From Streptomyces sp. HPF1205 (lineage in GTDB: Bacteria; Actinomycetota; Actinomycetes; Streptomycetales; Streptomycetaceae): a stretch of DNA of 64,000 nucleotides. Shown piece by piece: positions 2,611-31,224 of this stretch. Below the pieces are notes generated by a model, which was given only the letters and a program-made list of their open reading frames with translations, did no database searches and was not told where the DNA came from. The DNA is taken from assembly GCF_020400825.1 (NCBI RefSeq), contig NZ_JAINVH010000038.1:1-64000 (forward strand), written 5' to 3'. The position numbers and the translations under genes were made by a program. Each line of letters starts with the position of its first letter. Positions within the stretch are counted from its first letter, which is position 1.

Positions 2611-3882
2611 ATGGCCGACAGCGACACGCCGCAGCCCACCGTCCTGCTCTGCAAGTGGAAGGAGGAGCTGGTCCGCACCTTCCTTGGACTTGGCTGCCGG
2701 CTGTACCTCGTACTGGACGACTTCGACCTCAAGAACAACAACCCGCCCGCCGATCTGCTCGACGCTGCTGAGGGGGTGTACCGGGTCCCGGAGTTCGACT
2801 CGCTGGACGCCGTGGCGACGGTGGCGGCGGACCTGAAGCTGCGCGGCGAGCGGATCGACCACATCGTCAGCCACGCGGAGTACAGCCAGTTCGGCGCGGG
2901 CTACCTGGACATCCTGCTGCGCAGGGGCGGGGCACACCCCTTCGGCCACGTCGCCCTGCGCGACAAGCGCCTGATGAAGGCGGCAGTACGGAAAGCGGGC
3001 ATCCCCGCCGCAGCCTTCGTACCGCTCACCTCGGCCGGAGACCTGCGCGGCGCGGCCGAGGCGGCCCGCACCTTGCAGTTCCCCGCCGTACTGAAGCCGG
3101 CCACCGGGCTGGGCACCCTGAGCACGACCAAGGTTGCCCGGCCCGAGGACCTCCTTCCCGCCCTGCAACGCATCGACTACTCACCTAAGCTGAAGTCCCG
3201 TCAGCTCTCGGTCGAGGAATTCGTCGAGGGCCGCGAATACCACGTGGACGCGTTCTGGGTACGGGGAAATCCGGTATATCTCGCCGTCGGCGAGTACTGC
3301 CACAATCAGCTCAGCCTCGTGAGCGACACCGGCAAGGGCGGGCGCCTCCTGGACGGCAGCCGCATCGTCCTGCGCGACGAGGATCCCGCGCTGTACGAAG
3401 ACATAGCGGAGCTTCACCACCGGGTCAACAAGGCGCTGTCCGTGACGGACGGGAACACCCACCTCGAAGTATTCCGGAAAGCGGACGGAAGCCTGGTCTT
3501 CTCGGAAATGGCCGGCCGTATCGGCGGCGGATGGCTGCCCCTGCTCCTCACCCAGTACCTCGGCCGCAGCGTATGGGAGGTGATAGCCCGTGGCACCCTG
3601 GGCGAGACCGGCGTCACACCCGCTCCCGCTCACACCTACCTGGGCGGATTCGCTCTGGCACCTGACGCCGGAGGGACCATTGCGGAGGTCCCCGGCGAAG
3701 CCGAGGCACTGGCGTGCCCGGGCGTGCTGAGCTGGAAGGCGTTCTGCAAGCCCGGCGACACCGTGCCCGACCACACGATCGACCGCCGGTCCGCCTTCAT
3801 CGTCGTGGGTGCCGATTCGCTGTCCGACTACGAGAAGTACGTCGAGGAGGCGCACCGGCGCCTGACGATCAAGCTCGCCTGA
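2611..3882 (+). CDS. ATP-grasp domain ligase
   Basis: This is a 423-residue protein starting at ATG 2611 (an in-frame ATG at 2587 is also possible, but has no better ribosome site). The N-terminal third looks like the pre-ATP-grasp Rossmann-type part. The ATP-grasp core shows an ATP-binding lysine in AVLKPATGLGTLSTTK, the strand VEEFVEGREYHVDAF, and the metal site HLEVF...VFSEMAGRIGGG. ATP-grasp ligases activate a carboxylate as acyl phosphate and join it to an amine or thiol. This group often sits in natural-product or amino-acid-ligase cassettes. The substrate cannot be read from the sequence. It leads a same-strand set with a sulfotransferase and an MFS exporter, suggesting a small biosynthesis-and-export cassette. 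Confidence 0.85.
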   Translation: MADSDTPQPTVLLCKWKEELVRTFLGLGCRLYLVLDDFDLKNNNPPADLLDAAEGVYRVPEFDSLDAVATVAADLKLRGERIDHIVSHAEYSQFGAGYLDILLRRGGAHPFGHVALRDKRLMKAAVRKAGIPAAAFVPLTSAGDLRGAAEAARTLQFPAVLKPATGLGTLSTTKVARPEDLLPALQRIDYSPKLKSRQLSVEEFVEGREYHVDAFWVRGNPVYLAVGEYCHNQLSLVSDTGKGGRLLDGSRIVLRDEDPALYEDIAELHHRVNKALSVTDGNTHLEVFRKADGSLVFSEMAGRIGGGWLPLLLTQYLGRSVWEVIARGTLGETGVTPAPAHTYLGGFALAPDAGGTIAEVPGEAEALACPGVLSWKAFCKPGDTVPDHTIDRRSAFIVVGADSLSDYEKYVEEAHRRLTIKLA

Positions 3883-3955
3883 ACCCTGCCCCGCACTCGG
3901 CCGCAGACGCGACCTCGCTTTCACGCCATCCACGAATGCACGGAAAGGTACCCAC

Positions 3956-4735
3956 TTGAAGGATCCACGCGGCATCCTGGTTCTCGGAAGCCCCCGCAGC
4001 GGCACCACCATGGTCGGCAATTACCTGAGCAGCTCGGACAACGTGTGCGACATGGGGGAGTACGGCGGGTTCCACTTTGTCCGCATCTGCGCGCCGCCCG
4101 AATTCGAAGGGGCACCCAGCCGCTACCTGGACGACTACCTCCAGGGACTGCGCACCCACGCCCGCACCTTCGCCGAGTCCACGGCCACCGCCCACGGCCA
4201 CGCCTACTACCTGGACCACTGCCCGTGGAACCTGCTCGTCGGCGGCGACCTGGAGGACGACGCGGCCGGCGCACTGTTCGTCCTCATGCTCCGCCACCCC
4301 GTCGGCGTCGTGCAGAGCTTGGCCCGCTCCTACGCCAAGGGCTACACCTGGGCCGGTGCGGATGTCACCGCACGTGCCTCGCTGTGGTGCCAGTTCTACG
4401 AGAAAGCCCTCGAACTGCCGGAGGACCGTACCGTCGCCGTCAGCTACGACGCCCTGTGCGCCGCACCGCAGACGGCGCTGCGGGAGATGGAACGCCAGGT
4501 CACGGACAACGGGTTCTCCCTCGGCCCGCTCGACCCCTCCGTGCTGGCAGTCAGCCACGCCACCAAGGCATCCGACCACCGGCCCACCCTCGCGCACACC
4601 GACGAGCAGGGGAACGTGCGGTTCACCCCAATCGCTCCGGAGCCCGACGACGACCTGCGCGCGGCAACGGCTCCCGTAACAGAGACGCTTCAGCACAAGC
4701 TCGCTGCCCGTTTCGGATGCGACTGGCTCCGGTAG
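3956..4735 (+). CDS. PAPS-dependent sulfotransferase-like protein
   Basis: A 259-residue protein begins at TTG 3956, chosen because GGAAAGG lies seven bases upstream and the P-loop follows at once. LVLGSPRSGTTMVGNYL (about residues 8-24) is the 5'-phosphosulfate binding loop, and LMLRHPVGVVQSLARSY (about 111-127) matches the 3'-phosphate binding motif of the sulfotransferase family. These enzymes transfer sulfate from PAPS to a hydroxyl or amine, normally in the cytoplasm. It lies 73 bases after the ATP-grasp gene and four bases before the MFS gene, so all three are probably co-transcribed. The acceptor is unknown. Some members with this P-loop bind other nucleotides, so the exact reaction is inferred. 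Confidence 0.82.
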   Translation: MKDPRGILVLGSPRSGTTMVGNYLSSSDNVCDMGEYGGFHFVRICAPPEFEGAPSRYLDDYLQGLRTHARTFAESTATAHGHAYYLDHCPWNLLVGGDLEDDAAGALFVLMLRHPVGVVQSLARSYAKGYTWAGADVTARASLWCQFYEKALELPEDRTVAVSYDALCAAPQTALREMERQVTDNGFSLGPLDPSVLAVSHATKASDHRPTLAHTDEQGNVRFTPIAPEPDDDLRAATAPVTETLQHKLAARFGCDWLR

Positions 4736-4739
4736 CCGC

Positions 4740-6080
4740 ATGGCTGAGCCACGGACCGCCACCGGGAGCGGAGGCATGGTGACATCCCTTCCCCGCCTTT
4801 CGCGTCTGTCGAAGGCGGCCGGGGCGCGGGCGGGGGCATCCTTCTGGCGGCGGACCCCGCCGGGGCTGCACCCCGCTCTCGTCGTCCAGACCGTGAGCTA
4901 TTCGGTCGGCCAGGGCCTGTACCTGGCCTGCGGCATCATCTACTTCACCCTGTACGGGGGGCTCGGCCCGGCCCAGGTGTCATTCGGGTTCTCCTGCGCC
5001 GGGCTGGCGTCCCTGTGCCTGTGGATGCCCTTCGGGGTGCTGTCCGACCGCCTCGGCGGGCGGGAGACGTGGATGCTCGGGGCCTTCGGCCAGGCGGTGC
5101 TCTTCGCCGCCCTGCCGTTCGTGCACGGCTTCGGGCCCTTCGTCGCGGTCATCACAGCGATCGGCCTCGCAAGCACCCTCGGCAGCTCTGGCCGGGTCCG
5201 CTACCTCGGCGACATCGCCTCCGCCCTGAACCGGGTGAAGGTCAACGCCTATCTGCGCTCCCTGTCGAATATCGGCTCCACCCTCGGTCTCGCCACGGGA
5301 GGCGTGATCGTCGGGCTGAAGTCCGAGCACCTGGTTGCCGGCGCCCTGTGGGCCAACGCCCTCACCTTCGCCGCCGACGTCGTCCTGCTCGCGGTGTACG
5401 GGCAGCGGGGCACACCGCGGGCGGAAAGGGCAGAACGCCCCAAGGGGCGGCGCGCCCTGAGCGACCGTCCTTTCGTGGTGCTCTCCTTGGTGACCGGCGT
5501 GTTCGCCGCGAGCGACATCGTGCTCACCCTGGTACTGCCACTGTGGATCCTGCAGCGGACGGACGCCCCACGGTTCGTGATCTCGGCCATGATGGCTGTC
5601 AACACCGGCATGGTGATCCTCCTCCAGGTCCGGGCCAGCGCGGGCGCGGACGACGTGCCCGGGGCCGCCCGCTCCCAGCGCCGGGCCGGGGTGTGCCTGG
5701 CGGCGGCGTGCGCGGTCTTCCTCGCCAGCGGGTACGCCCGGGGCGCTGGCACGGTGGCCCTCGTCGGGTGCGGCGTCGTCCTGCTCACGCTGGGGGAGTT
5801 GCTGTCCACCGCTTCCGGGTGGGGCCTGTCGTACGGCCTCAGCCCGGAGGCGCGCCGCGGCGAGTACCTTGCCCTGTTCCGGTGGGGCGACCAGCTGATG
5901 AACATCGCCGGCCCGCTGTGCCTGACCGCGCTGGCCCTCCACCGGGGAGGCTGGCTCGTTGCCGCTGCCGTGTTCGCGCTCGCCGGGCTGACGACGCCCC
6001 CGCTCGCCGACGCCGTCGTACGGTCCCGGACGGCGGACACACCGGCTGCGGCGGACCCAGCGGTCTCCGAAAAGTCCTGA
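4740..6080 (+). CDS. MFS transporter, probable exporter
   Basis: This is a hydrophobic protein of 446 residues with about 12 predicted membrane segments. The cytoplasmic loop after the second segment has the MFS motif-A-like sequence GVLSDRLGGRETW, and a basic central loop (GQRGTPRAERAERPKGRR) separates the two halves. ATG 4740 is four bases from the upstream stop but has no clear ribosome site. ATG 4776, with a GGGAG seven bases before it, is an equally plausible start. Its place at the end of the ATP-grasp / sulfotransferase set suggests that it exports the product of those enzymes. That role is an inference from position. Confidence 0.85.
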   Translation: MAEPRTATGSGGMVTSLPRLSRLSKAAGARAGASFWRRTPPGLHPALVVQTVSYSVGQGLYLACGIIYFTLYGGLGPAQVSFGFSCAGLASLCLWMPFGVLSDRLGGRETWMLGAFGQAVLFAALPFVHGFGPFVAVITAIGLASTLGSSGRVRYLGDIASALNRVKVNAYLRSLSNIGSTLGLATGGVIVGLKSEHLVAGALWANALTFAADVVLLAVYGQRGTPRAERAERPKGRRALSDRPFVVLSLVTGVFAASDIVLTLVLPLWILQRTDAPRFVISAMMAVNTGMVILLQVRASAGADDVPGAARSQRRAGVCLAAACAVFLASGYARGAGTVALVGCGVVLLTLGELLSTASGWGLSYGLSPEARRGEYLALFRWGDQLMNIAGPLCLTALALHRGGWLVAAAVFALAGLTTPPLADAVVRSRTADTPAAADPAVSEKS

Positions 6081-24277: not shown

Positions 24278-24820
24278 TTGTCCGTCGACGAGATGACCAA
24301 GCTGCCGGGTGTGGAGCGGATTCGCACCCAGGACCCGAACAACCACCTGCACTGTCGAAAGACCCAGCTCCTGGCGTACGTCGGCGGCCTGACACCGTGG
24401 TCCGACCTGCTGATGTACGGGGCGCTGGGCTCCACCTCGGCCATCCACCGCCACTGCTACCTGGGCGGCCGGGACCGCTGGGCGTTCGAGACCCCGTACG
24501 TGACCGACGACGACCTGCGCCTGCTGGGGTTCGAGGTGCTGCCGGCCGGAGCCGCGGACGACCTGGCCCGGTTGGAGTCGGGCCTCCCCCGGTTGGAGTC
24601 GGGCCTCACCCAGTACCTGGCCGCCGGACAGCCCGTGCTCTTCTACGCGCCCCGGCACCATTTCCCGTACTGGATGGACTTCATGCGCCGCGTCGGCACG
24701 CTCCCCGAGGAGTACGGGCTGCTGCACTCGTTCCTCGTCTGCGGGGCGAGCAGCACTCAGGTACTGCTGGTCGACAACGTCGCCGACGACCACGAGTACT
24801 TCGCACTGACACGGCAGCTG
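24278..24820 (+). pseudogene. BtrH-like acyltransferase, 5' part
   Basis: TTG 24278 with CGGAGG upstream opens a frame of 181 codons. The first residues include HCRKTQLLAYVGG and then FETPYVTDDDLRLLGFEV. The N-terminus corresponds to the BtrH_N family (butirosin biosynthesis protein H), whose conserved Cys starts the acyl-transfer site (NNHLHCRKTQ). The frame is cut at 24820 by an IS701-type element whose first three bases supply a TAG stop. The C-terminal half continues at 30703 after a second insertion. BtrH moves an acyl group from an acyl carrier protein to an amine. Here the gene can act only if both insertions are removed. Confidence 0.7.
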
Positions 24821-25193
24821 TAGTTCTTGATCGGTGAGGTATCGCTGCTGGTCAGGTCGTCGCAGCGGCGGTGATGTTGTTCCATCTTTGGTGGGCCTGG
24901 GCGGCTTGGTGTTGGTGGTGGCGGCGCCAGGCGGACCAGTGCAGGAGGTGGTCGCGGTCGCGTCGGGGGTGGGGCAGGGCAGTGATCCGTAGCAGGCGGA
25001 GCAGTTCGCGGCCGCTGGCTGGGGCGAGTTCGCCGCCGGTGGTGGCCATGGTGGCAGTGCGGGCGCGGGCGATCGCGAGGACGGCTGCGGCGAGCATGCT
25101 GATCAGGGTCCAGCGCATCCAGGAGTTCCAGCAGGTGGTCTGGCCCTGGTCGAGGCCGCAGACGCCCTTTGTCAGCTGGAAGTCTTCCTCAGT

Positions 25194-25201
25194 CCGCCAC
25201 C
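25194..25201 (+). repeat. attL core of recombinase element
   Basis: CCGCCACC, a direct copy of the octamer at 27679-27686. Joining the outside flanks through one copy gives an uninterrupted transposase frame. The true crossover dinucleotide for serine recombinases lies within such a core. Confidence 0.75.
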
Positions 25202-25470
25202 CGTAAAGCACCCGAAGGCGGTTCGAGTTCCTGTGGGTTGGCGATACTCCAGGTAGAGGCCCTGCTGCGGCTGGGCGAGTTGGTGACGCGGCTGCGGGGC
25301 CGTGTGGATATGGCGGGGGGTGACGACCGGTGTCCGGGCCTGACGGACCTCCCCCTTGAGCTTGGTGTGGACGGCGCTTCCCGCGGACAGGCGGGCGTTG
25401 GCCGTGCGGATGCTGGCGGCGTGGGCGAGCCGGGCGGCGAGTTCCGAACGCCGGGAGAGGAGCGGGAAGA

Positions 25471-27633
25471 GTGAGCGGCTCCTTCCTTCTTCCGTGGGGC
25501 CAGTCGCAGGACAAGATCCGGGCTGAGCACCGGGACCGCACCGCCCTGGTCTACGTGCGGCAGTCCAGTCGGCAGCAGGTGATCGAGCACTCGGAGTCGA
25601 CGCGCCTGCAGTACCGGTTGGTGGAGCGGGCGGTCGCGCTGGGATGGGCCCGCTCGCGGGTCGAGCTGATCGACGACGACCTCGGGCAGTCCGCGGCCAC
25701 GGCCGACACGCGGCCAGGCTTCGCGAAGCTGGTCACCGAGGTGACCATGGGCCGGGTCGGCCTGGTGCTGGGAATCGAGATGTCCCGGCTTGCCCGCACC
25801 GGCCGCGACTGGCACCAGCTGATCGAGCTGTGCTCGCTCTCTGGCGCCCTGCTGGCCGACCTCGACGGCGTCTACGACCCGTCCTACTACAACGACAGAC
25901 TGCTGCTCGGCCTGAAGGGCACCATGCCGGAGGCCGAGCTCTACCTCATCCGCCAGCGTATGGAGGGCGGGAAGCGTGCGAAGGCAGAACGAGGTGAGCT
26001 CGCCCTGCGCCCGCCGATCGGCTACTGGCGCCGGCCCTCAGGCGAGACCGTCCTGGAACCCGACGAGCAGGCCCGCACCGTGGTCCGGCTGATCTTCGAC
26101 ACCTTCGCCCGCGTCGGCACCATCAACGGCGTCCTGCGCCACCTCGTCGCGCACGGCGTCCAGATGCCGGTCCGTTCCGCGTCCGGCCTCGACAAGGGCG
26201 ACCTGACCTGGCGCCGCCCCACCCGCGAGACTCTGCAGATCATGCTGCACAACCCGGTCTATGCCGGGTACTACGCCTATGGGCGCAGGCAGACCGAGAC
26301 GCGCCGCAAGAAGCCGGGACGGCCCTCGACCGGGCGGGTGGTGACTGCGATGGACCAGTGGCACGTACTGCTGCCCGACCGGCTGCCCGCCTACATCACC
26401 GCCGAGCAGTACCACGCGAACCTGGCCCGGCTGGACGCCAACCGGCAGACCTCGACGCATTCCGGGACGCCGCGGGGCGGAGCGGCCCTGCTCGCCGGGC
26501 TGCTGCGCTGCGGCAAGTGCGGCCACCGCATGGCCTCGCACTACCACCACCACGCGGCCCATCCGGTCACGCACAACTACTCGTGCGCCTTCTTCCCCGT
26601 CAACTACGGAACCGGCGAACGCTGCCAGACCGTCGCCGGGCCCGTCCTGGACCGCCACATCACGGCCCAGCTCATGGAAGCCGTCGCCCCCGCTGCTTTG
26701 GAGGTCTCCCTCAAAGCCGCCGAGCAGGCCGAGGCCGAGCGCGCCGTCCTCGACACCCTGTGGCGCCAGCGCCTGGAGCGGACCCGCATCACCGCTGACC
26801 GCGCCCGACGCCAGTACCAGCTCGCGGAACCCGAGAACCGCCTCGTCGTACGCCAGCTGGAGAAGGACTGGGAGGAGGCACTTGCCGATCAGGCCCGACT
26901 GGAGGACGAGTACGCCCGCTTCACCGAGGCACGTCCCGCCCGGCTCGACGACACCGAACGGCACGTCATCCGGCGCCTGGCCGCAGATCTGCCCGGCTTG
27001 TGGTCGGACCCGCGTGTCACCCAGGCCGAGCGCAAGGAACTCCTGCGCATCCTGGTCGAGGCCGTCACCGTGTCCGTCGTCGGCGACAGCGAACTGGTCG
27101 ACGTCACCATCACCTGGGCCGGCGGTCATCAGACCCACAGCCAAGCCGTCCGCCCCGTCCAGCGCTACGACCAGCTCTCATACTTCCCCCGGATGCTCGA
27201 ACGCCTCGATGAACTCGCCCGCCAGGGCCTGAACGTCGGACAGATCGCCCGCCAACTCAACGCCGAAGCCTTCCGCCCACCCAAGCGGACCAGCCGCTTC
27301 ACCACCGAACTGGTCGGAAAGCTCCTTGCCCGGCACGCGATCCGCACTCCCGGCCGCCGCCGCAGCCCAGCCCCCGAGCCTGGCCCGGACCAGTGGACCG
27401 TCCGAACCCTCGCAGACGAACTCGCCATGCCCACCGACACCGTCTTCACCTGGATCTACCGCGGCTGGCTCACCGCCGCGAAGCCCCCTGGCGCCCGCTC
27501 TTGGATCATCAGCGCCGACGCCGACGAACTGCGCAGACTCCGCGAACTGCGCTCGCTCCCCCGCGGCCACCACGCACGCCAGCGATGGCAGGCACCCGTC
27601 CGCCCCCAACAACCCGACAAGGAGGCCCCATGA
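25471..27633 (+). CDS. Large serine recombinase (integrase)
   Basis: The protein has 720 residues from GTG 25471, with AGGAG about nine bases upstream. The resolvase domain starts with LVYVRQSSRQQ (catalytic Ser at about residue 32) and includes GLVLGIEMSRLARTGRDW and LLGLKGTMPEAELYLIRQRM. The recombinase domain follows (ELALRPPIGYWRR, IMLHNPVYAGYYAYGRRQ), then a zinc ribbon (LLRCGKCGHRM with a distant second Cys pair), a coiled-coil region and an extended C-terminus with a helix-turn-helix-like AMPTDTVFTWIYRGWLTA. Such enzymes integrate or excise DNA between short att sites without host factors. Here the gene sits inside its own short element, which suggests a single-gene transposon-like life style. 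Confidence 0.92.
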   Translation: MSGSFLLPWGQSQDKIRAEHRDRTALVYVRQSSRQQVIEHSESTRLQYRLVERAVALGWARSRVELIDDDLGQSAATADTRPGFAKLVTEVTMGRVGLVLGIEMSRLARTGRDWHQLIELCSLSGALLADLDGVYDPSYYNDRLLLGLKGTMPEAELYLIRQRMEGGKRAKAERGELALRPPIGYWRRPSGETVLEPDEQARTVVRLIFDTFARVGTINGVLRHLVAHGVQMPVRSASGLDKGDLTWRRPTRETLQIMLHNPVYAGYYAYGRRQTETRRKKPGRPSTGRVVTAMDQWHVLLPDRLPAYITAEQYHANLARLDANRQTSTHSGTPRGGAALLAGLLRCGKCGHRMASHYHHHAAHPVTHNYSCAFFPVNYGTGERCQTVAGPVLDRHITAQLMEAVAPAALEVSLKAAEQAEAERAVLDTLWRQRLERTRITADRARRQYQLAEPENRLVVRQLEKDWEEALADQARLEDEYARFTEARPARLDDTERHVIRRLAADLPGLWSDPRVTQAERKELLRILVEAVTVSVVGDSELVDVTITWAGGHQTHSQAVRPVQRYDQLSYFPRMLERLDELARQGLNVGQIARQLNAEAFRPPKRTSRFTTELVGKLLARHAIRTPGRRRSPAPEPGPDQWTVRTLADELAMPTDTVFTWIYRGWLTAAKPPGARSWIISADADELRRLRELRSLPRGHHARQRWQAPVRPQQPDKEAP

Positions 27634-27678
27634 AGAAACCACCGGACATGGGGTGCACTCCGAGTGGCGCACCTCCAC

Positions 27679-27686
27679 CCGCCACC
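27679..27686 (+). repeat. attR core of recombinase element
   Basis: CCGCCACC, the second copy of the 8-bp core. It lies 45 bases downstream of the recombinase stop and marks the right end of the nested element. Confidence 0.75.
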
Positions 27687-28779
27687 GGCAGCACACCACG
27701 CCCACAAGATCGGCCAGGGTGACCGGCGTGGCCGAGTGGCAGCGGTAGTAGGAGAGTTCGCGGGTGTAGCGGTGGCGGCGGACCAGGACGAGGGAGTGTC
27801 CGGGCTCGTTGCCGTCGGGGGTGTCGTCGGGGTGGATGTCGAGCATGGCCCAGTCGTAGTGGCGGTCGCCCTTGAGGCCGTGGCCGGTGCGCATCCGCAT
27901 CCAGTTCGTCTTCGGGACGCGGGTGGCCAGGTCGGTAACGGTCAGGCGGCCGATCCGGGTGTCCACGCGGTGGTCGGCGCGGACCGCGAGGGCGTAGTCG
28001 AAGCCGAGGCCGCGGGCGGCCTGTCGCAGTTCGCGGCTGCCGTAGACCTCGTCGCCGGCCAGCCACCGGGCCGGTATGCCCAGATCGCGGGCGCGCTGGA
28101 GCATGACGGCGGCGAGCTGGGGCTTGGTGGCGAAGATGATCTCGTCGGGCACGTGGGTGAGCAGGCGGCGTTCTTCGTCGGCGGCCCATTGCCTGCCGAA
28201 GTACAGGATCCGGTCGATGGGGGCGTGTCCGTGCGGGGAGGCGTAGGTGAGGTGGACGGCGACCTGGCACAGGCCGATCCCGCCGAGTGCCCCGGAGTAC
28301 TGGTGGGCGGCGCCGACGCAGTCGGTGGAGGACTTCTCGTCGCCGGTCTCGTCCACGATCAACACCGCTTGGGGATCCGCGAGCTCACTCGCGGTCCAGG
28401 TCGCGATGCGGTCCCGGGCCAGGTCGTGGTCGATGACGGCGCGGGACAGAAAGTGCTGCAGCCGGTGCGGACCGCGATGCCCGAGCGCCTCGGCCAGGGT
28501 CCAGCAGTTGCGGGTGTCCAGCTCCATCAGCATCGCCTCGCACATTTCCCGGGCCAGGCCGCGCGGCCCCGGTCGCTCAAAACAGTCCGCGATCTTGGAG
28601 GTCACCGCCCCCAGCGCCGTCACCCATGCCTGCTCGGCTATCGTGGCCTCCACGGCCACCTGGTTCTGACGAGTCTTCACAAACCGCCATGATCACGGTG
28701 GCCGTACCCATGCCCGCGGGCACCCCCGGCGTCGGCTGACCAGCAGCGATACCGCAGGGATCAAGAACTACAGCTGCCG

Positions 28780-30702
28780 GTGTGCCACGAACGCAGAGAG
28801 GATGCCCGTGATGTAGGAGATCGAGCACCTTGATGCGGTGCTGTGTGAGAGATGAGGGAAGGCCCCTCGGAGTCGCTCTGCGGGGGGAGGCTCCAAACCA
28901 CCGCATGCTGCGTTGGCTGAAGACCGTCGTGGTGAGCGATGCGGAAAAGGCGCCCAGGAGGCGTCAGGTGGGGACCGCGAAGACGACCGTTGTTGAAGTG
29001 TCGAAATGTAGTCAGAAGGCGTCGAAACCCGGGCGATTCGGCAGTGTTCGGGGACAAGCCTGGCGGGAGCCCGCCGACTGGCCAGGCGGCGTCCGGCATG
29101 AAGACGGCGTGAGCGTGGTCTGCCGCTCTCGCACGGAATGTGGGAAGGCGCATCTGGCGTGGTCGCGTGCAGCAGCGCGGCCGACCGGGAGTGCCCGAGC
29201 CGGGAATACCCCGTAGGGACTTCGAGTACCGGGCCGGATGCGCTGGCGGACCGGCGCGTAGTAGCGGTGATGCCCCTGCAATGGGGGCGGAGCGAAGGGG
29301 CCGGGTCGTTCGTGGCTGTTGTTCGTTTGGTCAACCAGAGCTCTGGGAGGAGCCCGATGGACCAGCTGAAAGTATCTGGCAAGCCGTTCGACATCTCCAA
29401 GCAGGAGGTGTGGGACGCCTGGTTGAAGGTGAAGGGCAATCAGGGAGGGCCGGGGGTGGACGGGCAGTCGATCGAGGAGTTCGAGAAGGATCTGCGGGGA
29501 AACCTGTACAAGGTCTGGAACCGGATGTCCTCGGGGACCTACTTCCCGCCTCCGGTCAAGGCGGTGGAGATCCCGAAAGCGCATGGTGCTGCTGGTGTCC
29601 GTGTGCTCGGAGTGCCCACTGTCGCCGATCGGGTGGCGCAGACGGTGGTAGCCGCGCATCTGGAGAGACGGGTGGAGCCGGTGTTCCATCCTGACTCCTA
29701 CGGCTACCGCCCGAACCGCTCGGCGCTGGACGCGGTCGAGGTCTGCCGACGACGTTGCTGGGAGTACAACTGGGTGATCGATCTCGACATCCGGAAGTTC
29801 TTCGACAGCGTGCGGTGGGACTTGGTCGTCAAGGCCGTCGAGGCGCACACCGATGCCCGCTGGGTCGTGCTGTATGTGAAGCGGTGGCTGGCCGCTCCGC
29901 TGCACCTGCCTGACGGGACCTTGCAGGCGAGAGACCGGGGAACCCCACAGGGATCATCGGTCTCACCCGTCCTGGCGAACCTGTTCATGCATTATGCGTT
30001 CGATACGTGGCTGACCCGGGAGTTCCCCGCGGTCGCCTTCGAACGCTACGCGGACGACGCAGTGATCCACTGCGTCACCGAGGGGCAGGCCAGGCGTGTC
30101 CTGGCGGCCCTGCACGAGCGGATGGCCCAGGTCGGACTGGAGCTGCACGCGGACAAGACGAAGGTGGTGTACTGCAAGGACAGCAACCGGCGCGGGGACT
30201 TCACGCAGGTGGCGTTCACGTTCCTGGGGTTCACCTTCCGTCCGCGCAAGGCGCGCCGGAAGGACGGGGTGCAGTTCACCGGGTTCCAGCCGGCGGTCAG
30301 CAAGGAGGCCCTGAAGAAGATGGGCGCGACAGTGCGGTCCTGGCGGCTGCACCTGCGCGTCTCCAGCTCGGAAGCGGACCTCGCACGGTGGATCAACCCG
30401 ATCGTGCGGGGGTGGATGGCCTATTACGGGTCCTTCTACCGCCAAGGGCTGGCGCCCTTGCTCCACCGCATCAACACCTACCTACTGCGGTGGATCATGA
30501 ACAAGTACAAGAGACTGCGGAGCTGGAAGAAGGCCGTCCGCGCGATGCGCGACGCGATTGCTCGGCAGCCTCGGTACTTCGCGCACTGGACCTGGGTGAA
30601 ACCGGCTGTCACGTGACGAGAACGACAAGAGCCGTATGACGGGAGACTGTCACGTACGGATCTGTGGGAGCCCGAGGGTGAGATCCCCTCGGGCTACCCG
30701 AC
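28780..30702 (+). ncRNA. Group II intron
   Basis: The 5' end GTGTG at 28780 fits the GUGYG consensus and lies directly after the sequence CAGCTGCCG. Domain V is clear at 30629-30663 (GAGCCGTATGAC, loop GGGAGACT, GTCACGTACGG), with the AGC catalytic triad. Domain VI follows as a GCCCGAGGG / CCCTCGGGC hairpin, ending at CTACCCGAC (about 30702). The intron carries a reverse transcriptase in its central domain. It lies in the same orientation as the split BtrH-like gene. Splicing at these boundaries leaves an in-frame TGA right after the junction, so either the boundaries differ slightly or the host gene does not recover. Confidence 0.85.
29357..30616 (+). CDS. ltrA: Group II intron reverse transcriptase/maturase
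   Basis: The protein has 419 residues starting at ATG 29357 behind GGGAGGAGC. The RT motifs are in order: GNQGGPGVDGQSIEEFE, SYGYRPNRSALDAV, VIDLDIRKFFDSV (first active Asp), GTPQGSSVSPVLANLF and FERYADDAVIHC (YADD active site). They are followed by FTFLGFTFRPR and the maturase X domain (WMAYYGSFYRQGLAPLL, LLRWIMNKYKRL). No HNH endonuclease domain follows, so target-primed reverse transcription would need another primer, such as a replication-fork strand. The protein both splices and moves the intron. The symbol is the family name, not a proven orthologue. Confidence 0.92.
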   Translation: MDQLKVSGKPFDISKQEVWDAWLKVKGNQGGPGVDGQSIEEFEKDLRGNLYKVWNRMSSGTYFPPPVKAVEIPKAHGAAGVRVLGVPTVADRVAQTVVAAHLERRVEPVFHPDSYGYRPNRSALDAVEVCRRRCWEYNWVIDLDIRKFFDSVRWDLVVKAVEAHTDARWVVLYVKRWLAAPLHLPDGTLQARDRGTPQGSSVSPVLANLFMHYAFDTWLTREFPAVAFERYADDAVIHCVTEGQARRVLAALHERMAQVGLELHADKTKVVYCKDSNRRGDFTQVAFTFLGFTFRPRKARRKDGVQFTGFQPAVSKEALKKMGATVRSWRLHLRVSSSEADLARWINPIVRGWMAYYGSFYRQGLAPLLHRINTYLLRWIMNKYKRLRSWKKAVRAMRDAIARQPRYFAHWTWVKPAVT

Positions 30703-31224
30703 TGACTGACCGTGGACTGGGACGTGCTGCGTGAGGGCTATGCCCGCGAGCCCGACCGCTGGTTCCTGGGCTGTGTGACGGTCCGCCAGGTGTCCGAGCC
30801 CGACCGGGACGGCTTCGAGGCCGCGTACCGCGAGTTCGCCGACGGCTTCCGCGACGGATTCGAGCTGTACGACGTCATCGCCGACAATCTCGTCCTGGAG
30901 CGCAGGTCGGCCGCCGCCTACCGTGCGCCCGGCATCAACAGCCTGGCGCTGCTGGCCGGTTCGCGGACGCTGTTCCGCCGGTTCCTCGAGCACACCGGGC
31001 ACGGCGAGCCGGTGCGCACCGCGTACGACCGCATCGCGCGACTGGCCACCGGCCTGTCGGACCGGGCCACCGCCTTCCAGGCCGGGCTGCCCGGACCCCC
31101 GGCGGACCGCATCCGCCGGGGCCTGGCCCACCTGCGGCAGCTCGAACAGCAGGCCGCGCGCCTCCTCGTCGACGAGGTGGCCACCCTCCCCACGATCCTG
31201 CCGGCGCCGGCCGACGGCCGGTAG
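30703..31224 (+). pseudogene. BtrH-like acyltransferase, 3' part (DUF4872 region)
   Basis: After the intron a TGA is followed by an open frame of about 172 codons. It contains WDVLREGYAREPDRWFLG, FADGFRDGFELYDVIADN and a helical end up to the TAG at 31222-31224. A GTG at 30712 could serve as a false start but has no ribosome site. Together with the 24278-24820 part this makes the usual 350-residue BtrH_N plus DUF4872 layout. Length, strand and the missing complementary halves support one ancestral gene. It is now separated by about 5.9 kb of insertions. Confidence 0.65.

Follow-up and report, generated by a model that had tools for sequence, protein, structure and literature searches.

A compact serine recombinase element that probably inserts at the catalytic glutamate codon of DDE transposases

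In a 64,000-nucleotide stretch of Streptomyces sp. HPF1205 (contig NZ_JAINVH010000038.1, positions 1 to 64,000; hereafter the window), a 2,485-bp insert interrupts a minus-strand gene for an IS701-type transposase and carries a gene for a large serine recombinase (LSR). This raises the question of what the insert is, where exactly it begins and ends, and what it recognises in the gene that it has split. A preliminary description of the locus proposed a compact single-gene element with an 8-bp core, CCGCCACC, lying in an IS701 transposase gene and perhaps targeting transposase genes. Comparison with related loci points to another crossover and to a wider range of targets. We consider it highly probable that the insert is a cargo-free LSR element of approximately 2.5 kb, whose integration takes place through conservative site-specific recombination and hits the catalytic-Glu codon of DDE transposase genes.

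The two copies of CCGCCACC lie at 25194 and 27679, 2485 bp apart, and joining the gene at them produces a single open minus-strand frame of 451 codons (447 counted from the first Val). On its own the repeat is weak evidence, because this strand of the window has 23 copies of it and nine of its complement. Ranking of direct repeats by length, or the length of the joined open reading frame (ORF) alone, failed to locate the ends, as longer chance repeats and open frames are abundant in GC-rich DNA. When the junctions of relatives are compared side by side, the two ends of each element form inverted arms. By this end symmetry the best pair in the window is TC at 25189 and TC at 27674, scoring 16/22 among the 1008 TC-TC pairs within 300 bases. 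This core sits 5 bp outward of CCGCCACC. On the transposase strand it reads GA, with which the Glu codon in RWRVE/EDFQ begins, and the same TC/GA dinucleotide is common to the window and its relatives.

Intact homologues of the transposase are found on plasmids, and settle this placement. Two of them, from which the insert is absent, read CCRWRVEEDFQ (83% identical) and CTRWKIEEDFQ (70%), and a third, recovered in two pieces, reads CCRWRAEEDFQ. The join at TC gives RWRVEED, the same as in the 83% homologue, and the join at CCGCCACC gives RWRTEED. As a core, CCGCCACC was therefore rejected: relatives have TC instead, and its join gives Thr where the homologues have Val, Ala or Ile. Of the preliminary description, the restored 447-residue IS701 transposase stands, the frame joined at the corrected core being open and matching NF033540 at 321.5 bits (cut-off 150), with the amendment that the junction residue is Val and not Thr. 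The 83% homologue does carry the restored sequence in this Val form, and the comparison favours insertion. The ends that had been fixed to the base by the repeat are replaced by TC 25189/27674.

With this core, the inserted element occupies 25189-27673 on the plus strand (2485 bp, one core copy plus insert), as assigned from end symmetry and comparison with relatives. The left and right crossover dinucleotides, at 25189-25190 and 27674-27675, are placed by symmetry, relatives and joined frames. The attachment-site arms, identified by arm symmetry and, on the right, also by the relatives, are 25191-25222 (left, an inverted match to the right arm) and 27642-27673 (right), both given on the plus strand. 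On the minus strand, the joined frame together with a domain search and the family profile divides the transposase into an N-terminal part with the DDE_5 domain (27674-28680), which ends in CCRWRV ahead of the Glu codon, and a C-terminal part from the Glu codon to the stop (24852-25190). The host insertion sequence (IS), at 24812-28779 on the minus strand, has 21-bp terminal inverted repeats at 24812-24832 and 28759-28779, and intact homologues align over approximately 1.5 kb with the joined IS. Splitting at the catalytic Glu is predicted to cost the transposase its function, while the ends of the IS remain intact.

Is this codon hit elsewhere? LSR relatives are present in 528 plasmid records and 12 loci of genome contigs. 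A scan of viral contigs added one relative, L073, without resolved ends. A census of 41 loci was drawn up (LSR at least approximately 44% identical to that of the window, duplicates merged; L030 comes from a draft assembly and may form one locus with L031 or L032, as its opposite side). The catalytic-Glu codon is seen at one or both ends of 34 of the 41. These comprise 19 loci with both ends, the window included, two further copies of the L045 element (L052 and L131), L034, and 12 one-ended loci (L030, L031, L032, L033, L036, L037, L046, L048, L049, L065, L070 and L078). The ends of L034 read EGAWSHLK and APEFNPV; it was kept out of the joined set as its LSR gene is rearranged. L036 and L046 were counted by the Glu codon, without a family-profile score, and the weakest case is L065, where SPDLNPIE lies 232 bases ahead of the gene and no core was called. 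A further locus, L040, is degraded and adjoins an IS701 remnant. Among the both-ended loci, L042 and L043 are cyanobacterial, L044 is proteobacterial, and the remainder are actinobacterial or from the window's phylum. On the Rhodovastum plasmid of L070 there are tandem 'recombinase family' genes (1510-2988 and 3061-4776), the second of which matches the family only from residue 132-135 onward, consistent with a split LSR.

In L027 (Streptomyces dysideae), L028 (Nonomuraea), L039 (a Streptomyces plasmid) and L044 (a Skermanella plasmid), transposases 33-46% identical to that of the window are split at the same residue, approximately 340. The joined frame is open in 19/19 both-ended loci, with Glu at the junction each time, and every one of these joined proteins has a DDE IS family as its top NCBIfam match. 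Seven belong to IS701 (the window, L105, which is L027, L028, L039, L044, L076 and L077), seven to IS5 (L093, which is L041, L043, L047, L055, L080, L094 and L117), two to IS4 (L042, L045), two to IS630 (L029, L113) and one to IS1380 (L114). The curated cut-off is exceeded by 13 of the 19 joined transposases. The six under it (L029, L055, L076, L080, L094 and L113) are all short or partial, with best E-values of 7.6e-27 to 3.4e-9. The Glu in the Y(2)R(3)E(6)K signature of IS4-group transposases is that of the DDE motif (PMC2266710). Relative to the junction Glu, R is found at -4 in 17/19 and K at +7 in 13/19; the cases without R are the two IS630 (LNPVE/GVW and LNPAE/GIW), and the six without K are IS5. 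The LSR is antisense to the split transposase in 18 of the 19, and LSRs of 48-76% identity occupy the same codon of different DDE families.

The proposal that the unit targets transposase genes is thus borne out in every both-ended locus, though IS701 accounts for 7/19 and other IS families host 12/19. In place of the GGTGGCGG sequence expected at insertion sites, what these share is TC/GA at the catalytic-Glu codon. An IS701-specific element with an 8-bp core, as the real CCGCCACC repeat and the open frame at its join had suggested, is very improbable given the TC common to the relatives, the Thr that the join puts against Val, Ala and Ile, and the other families hit, and is already contradicted. 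The element is not specific to IS701, and behaves as would a homing element directed at the best-conserved codon in transposase genes.

The element measures 2.33-2.58 kb in 18/19 both-ended loci, in agreement with the compact unit first described, and 3.0 kb in L076 (126-3131), the sole case of the 19 with additional DNA (approximately 0.5 kb) behind the LSR. From the core to the projected LSR start is 244-337 bp in 16/18 loci, with L080 and L034 deviating, and from the projected LSR end to the core is 9-143 bp in 18/18. TC/GA is at both ends in 19/19, TC or GA having been a search criterion. Over 18 bases, arm symmetry is 8-16 (mean 11.8) in the element's attachment site (attP) and 3-10 (mean 6.0) in the target site (attB). 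The symmetry tests scored all equal-dinucleotide pairs near the chosen ends, with both search ranges centred on those ends; the ends of L076 came from a position matrix and those of L077 were set with the aid of the transposase motif. Within 150 bases the Glu-codon pair is the sole best in 15/19 loci and shares the top score in L044 and L076, whereas it ranks second in L105 and only sixteenth in L077; within 300 bases it is the sole best in 14/19. The Glu motif is satisfied by 144 of 6212 pairs within 150 bases (2.3%, the chosen pairs among them).

The attP arms also resemble the targets. The arm ahead of Glu matches its own target arm at 5.8 of 12 bases, targets of other families at 4.6 and random 12-mers at 3.4. 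Read by eye in the transposase frame, the inner part of the window's left arm gives a target-like LYGWRT ahead of Glu. The corresponding codons read W-R-T-E in the window, W-Q-I-E in L039, W-R-I-E in L042, W-V-I-E in L043 and L045, and K-P-T-E in L029 and L113, and less clearly target-like L-L-L-E in L117 and L-L-F-E in L114. This likeness of the attP arm to the residues ahead of the victim's Glu is what had been taken for the CCGCCACC core.

The enzyme itself is a 720-residue protein with a GTG start (25471-27633, plus strand), defined by domain search and an alignment of nine relatives. Its domains, in the order resolvase (residues 26-176), recombinase and zinc ribbon, all score over their cut-offs (PF00239, 69.8 bits against 23.3; PF07508, 46.5; PF13408, 28.3). 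YVRQS with Ser32, which we take to be the catalytic Ser, is invariant across the 9-row alignment. The C-terminal 161 residues gave only sub-cut-off matches in Pfam, some of them to helix-turn-helix families. An AlphaFold model was set aside (mean predicted local distance difference test score 61, predicted template modelling score 0.31). The statement that the element has only one gene is overstated, as a 78-codon ORF with a TTG start lies at 25238-25474 on the plus strand and overlaps the LSR start by four bases. It has no Pfam match, and its motif, PII..EGLLRLVELV.RLRAR, was detected in 13 of 22 relatives scanned and not in the other nine. Pairwise differences are 0.535 at codon position 3 against 0.45 and 0.439, a modest excess, and from this conservation the ORF is likely to be protein-coding. 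A second conserved frame (VW.ALP..R) overlapping it was spotted by eye. Rfam gave no match inside the insert, both matches of the region 24700-31000 falling at 28854-30702.

Several observations weigh against the proposed insertion at the catalytic-Glu codon. Within 300 bases some pairs score higher than the chosen one (two in L105, four in L044, one in L029, three in L076 and 45 in L077), and the end symmetry of L077 is poor. The attB sites have little in common past GA, often with TGG ahead of it, which does not account for how a single family of enzymes would locate this codon in five transposase families. In IS5, IS630 and IS1380 the junction Glu is presumed by us to be the catalytic one. 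In L035 (Adonisia), the left arm falls within what by eye is an IS256 gene, where it meets a stretch of Trp-Lys, another codon, and no right end was found in this locus, which contains runs of N. Five of the 41 loci (L038, L071, L072, L073 and L079) are without resolved ends. Two distant relatives, L051 and L054, appear, on the presumed native continuation of IS256, to join it at LWE and not at the catalytic Glu. Finally, we infer the recombination itself (circle, excision and integration) from the sites.

Could an old IS lineage simply have carried the LSR as a passenger gene, passed down with the transposase and not inserting independently? An IS4-type IS does travel together with its LSR in one genome. 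In this genome, G314, a 4,044-bp unit of IS and LSR is present in three copies (L131, L132 and L133) with 0 and 1 differences, each within its own direct repeats, GCCTAAAGTC, GGCTTTAGGC and CCCTTTAGGC (10 bp; 8 or 6 under other choices of the IS ends). With target duplications of their own, the three units would have moved as an IS. The transposase is split in all three, and there is no intact helper copy among the matches, the others being two at 33% and one fragment at 54%. The unit may have been moved by a transposase that was provided in trans and later disappeared, or have moved following a transient excision. An LSR can, on this evidence, ride inside its host IS.

Against inheritance with the IS alone stand the intact transposases, 83% identical to that of the window, which lack an LSR, and the LSRs of 48-76% identity that occupy one and the same codon across different DDE families. 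The target families are interspersed on a tree of 44 LSRs, whose well-supported branches require the IS701 label (8 rows) to have changed at least four times. Five IS630-targeting LSRs form one clade (100/100), with L065, whose IS630 label is doubtful, outside it. In Streptosporangium canum, moreover, two copies of a 2513-bp element with zero differences lie in two different IS630 genes, where the residues ahead of the core are PPYAPELNPA and PAYAPELNPG (both contigs start three bases before the left core). The passenger interpretation is thus extremely unlikely. Because the target families are interspersed, LSR clades seem to have changed victim family yet kept the target codon.

A split at the catalytic Glu in all 19 both-ended cases would also fit a domesticated or selected device against ISs, from which the cell gains as transposase active sites are destroyed. 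However, the IS and LSR unit has still multiplied, and carriers are sparse. With the genome of the window itself included, and at most two candidates scored in each listed genome, LSR relatives occur in 10/394 genomes of the family (E<=1e-100), 10/396 of the phylum (1e-80) and 10/394 of the class (1e-150). We regard such a device as quite improbable. Another possibility is a reversible switch, in which precise excision by the LSR restores an active transposase, so that the IS is silenced and not killed. This would be in keeping with the open joined frames in 19/19, the intact IS ends in the window and the movement of the IS and LSR unit in a genome where no intact copy was found, whereas at least one host transposase, that of L027, has been interrupted a second time. 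On balance a switch is unlikely.

Integration of an independent element at the Glu codon remains the preferred reading, and its mechanism may be pictured as follows. The LSR would excise the element as a circle, bind attP and the target as dimers, and exchange strands at GA. The attP arm ahead of Glu would mimic the target codons and may help to set specificity. As with homing elements, the target gene is multicopy and dispensable, and would vary least in its active-site codons, so that it could hardly escape by mutation. With the transposase lost but the IS ends intact, the IS and LSR unit could still be mobilised as a whole by a transposase in trans.

Relatives at 34-43% identity, surveyed by motif and LSR alignment only, may extend this pattern. 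On a Mesorhizobium plasmid, L102 (1-5016) and L104, whose LSRs are identical, lie between the two parts of other LSR genes split near residue 135. The joined frame of L102, open over 514 residues, contains DADGIYDPAKPNDRLLLG; its junction has TC, and the split falls at the DGxYD motif. In L104 and L100 the split of an LSR gene is visible by alignment, and the frame search gave no joined frame. L101 and L103 start in IS21-like or related genes, four codons before the presumed catalytic Glu (by eye). Upstream ORFs with a sequence like FLDPxDLVQVKYEMVRRV were also seen in L005, L006, L053, L057, L059, L060, L082 and L115, and the upstream stretches of L050, L051 and L054 appear to resemble rhizobial Y4bD/Y4pK.

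A broader proposal is that these LSRs form a superfamily of hyperparasites that prey on the enzymes of other mobile elements, with every clade adapted to some conserved motif in the coding sequence of its victim. This motif would be the catalytic Glu in IS701, IS5, IS4, IS630 and IS1380 transposases, Trp-Glu in IS256, the stretch ahead of the presumed catalytic Glu in IS21-like genes, and DGxYD in other LSRs of the superfamily, where one recombinase sits inside another. Clades would switch victim and keep the codon through attP-arm mimicry, spreading by their own recombination and by riding in the host IS. For this wider idea the chances appear evenly balanced. If the targeting of Glu codons is real, LSRs have repeatedly evolved recognition of DNA encoding one catalytic residue across transposase families. 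They would form a natural series of enzymes with known, shifting targets and one fixed core, useful for studies of how LSRs choose their DNA. They would also represent a layer of parasitism among mobile elements, able to disable ISs or to travel in them, and may account for other annotations of split transposases beside a 'recombinase family protein'.

In the surroundings of the element, the LSR was found once in the host genome, and the left 375 bp of the IS match there only themselves, their own inverted repeat and one weak partial site. The right flank of the IS is occupied by a group II intron (RVT_1 and GIIM domains, 28780-30702), which adjoins the right inverted repeat, so the two flanks are not directly comparable for a 4-bp target duplication. 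DNA approximately 71% similar to this intron is present beside the LSR loci L039 and L030. On the left, an ORF at 24278-24823 ends within the IS end and resembles BtrH_N far under the cut-off (E 0.14). The region into which the IS inserted may be one of biosynthetic genes.

How does the element compare with known systems? In our literature searches no description was found of LSRs inserting at transposase active sites, as judged by titles and the openings of abstracts. Inverted attP arms with a shared central dinucleotide are the pattern of LSRs, and both are seen here, as is the order of resolvase, recombinase and zinc ribbon of phiC31 and Bxb1. Among the LSR elements already known, phages and integrative elements of tens of kb predominate; the present one, at 2.5 kb and free of cargo, hits an active-site codon in several transposase families. 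The targets named by Durrant et al. (2022, PMC10083194) include Mg chelatase, prolyl isomerase and competence genes, along with a DUF4368 multi-targeting clade; insertion at transposase active sites may also figure among their target enrichments. DUF4368 is not among the three Pfam families matching the window LSR at E<=0.001, which places it outside that clade. The IS701 family (PMC2266710) is the family of the split host gene, and so the target here and not the mobile element under study. IS607-family transposons likewise use a serine recombinase but have an N-terminal DNA-binding domain, whereas here the resolvase domain comes first in a 720-residue LSR with a fixed target codon.

Inteins, group I introns and homing endonucleases insert at conserved active-site codons, and the group II intron RmInt1 uses ISRm2011-2 as its host. 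With the former the element shares its target logic; it bears no sign of splicing, since the LSR is antisense to the split gene in 18/19. Like RmInt1 it is a mobile element hosted by an IS, but RmInt1 is an RNA element which splices and retrohomes, unlike a DNA recombinase. By its domains and site structure, the element thus belongs with known LSR elements, and what would be new is the homing-like targeting of transposase active sites.
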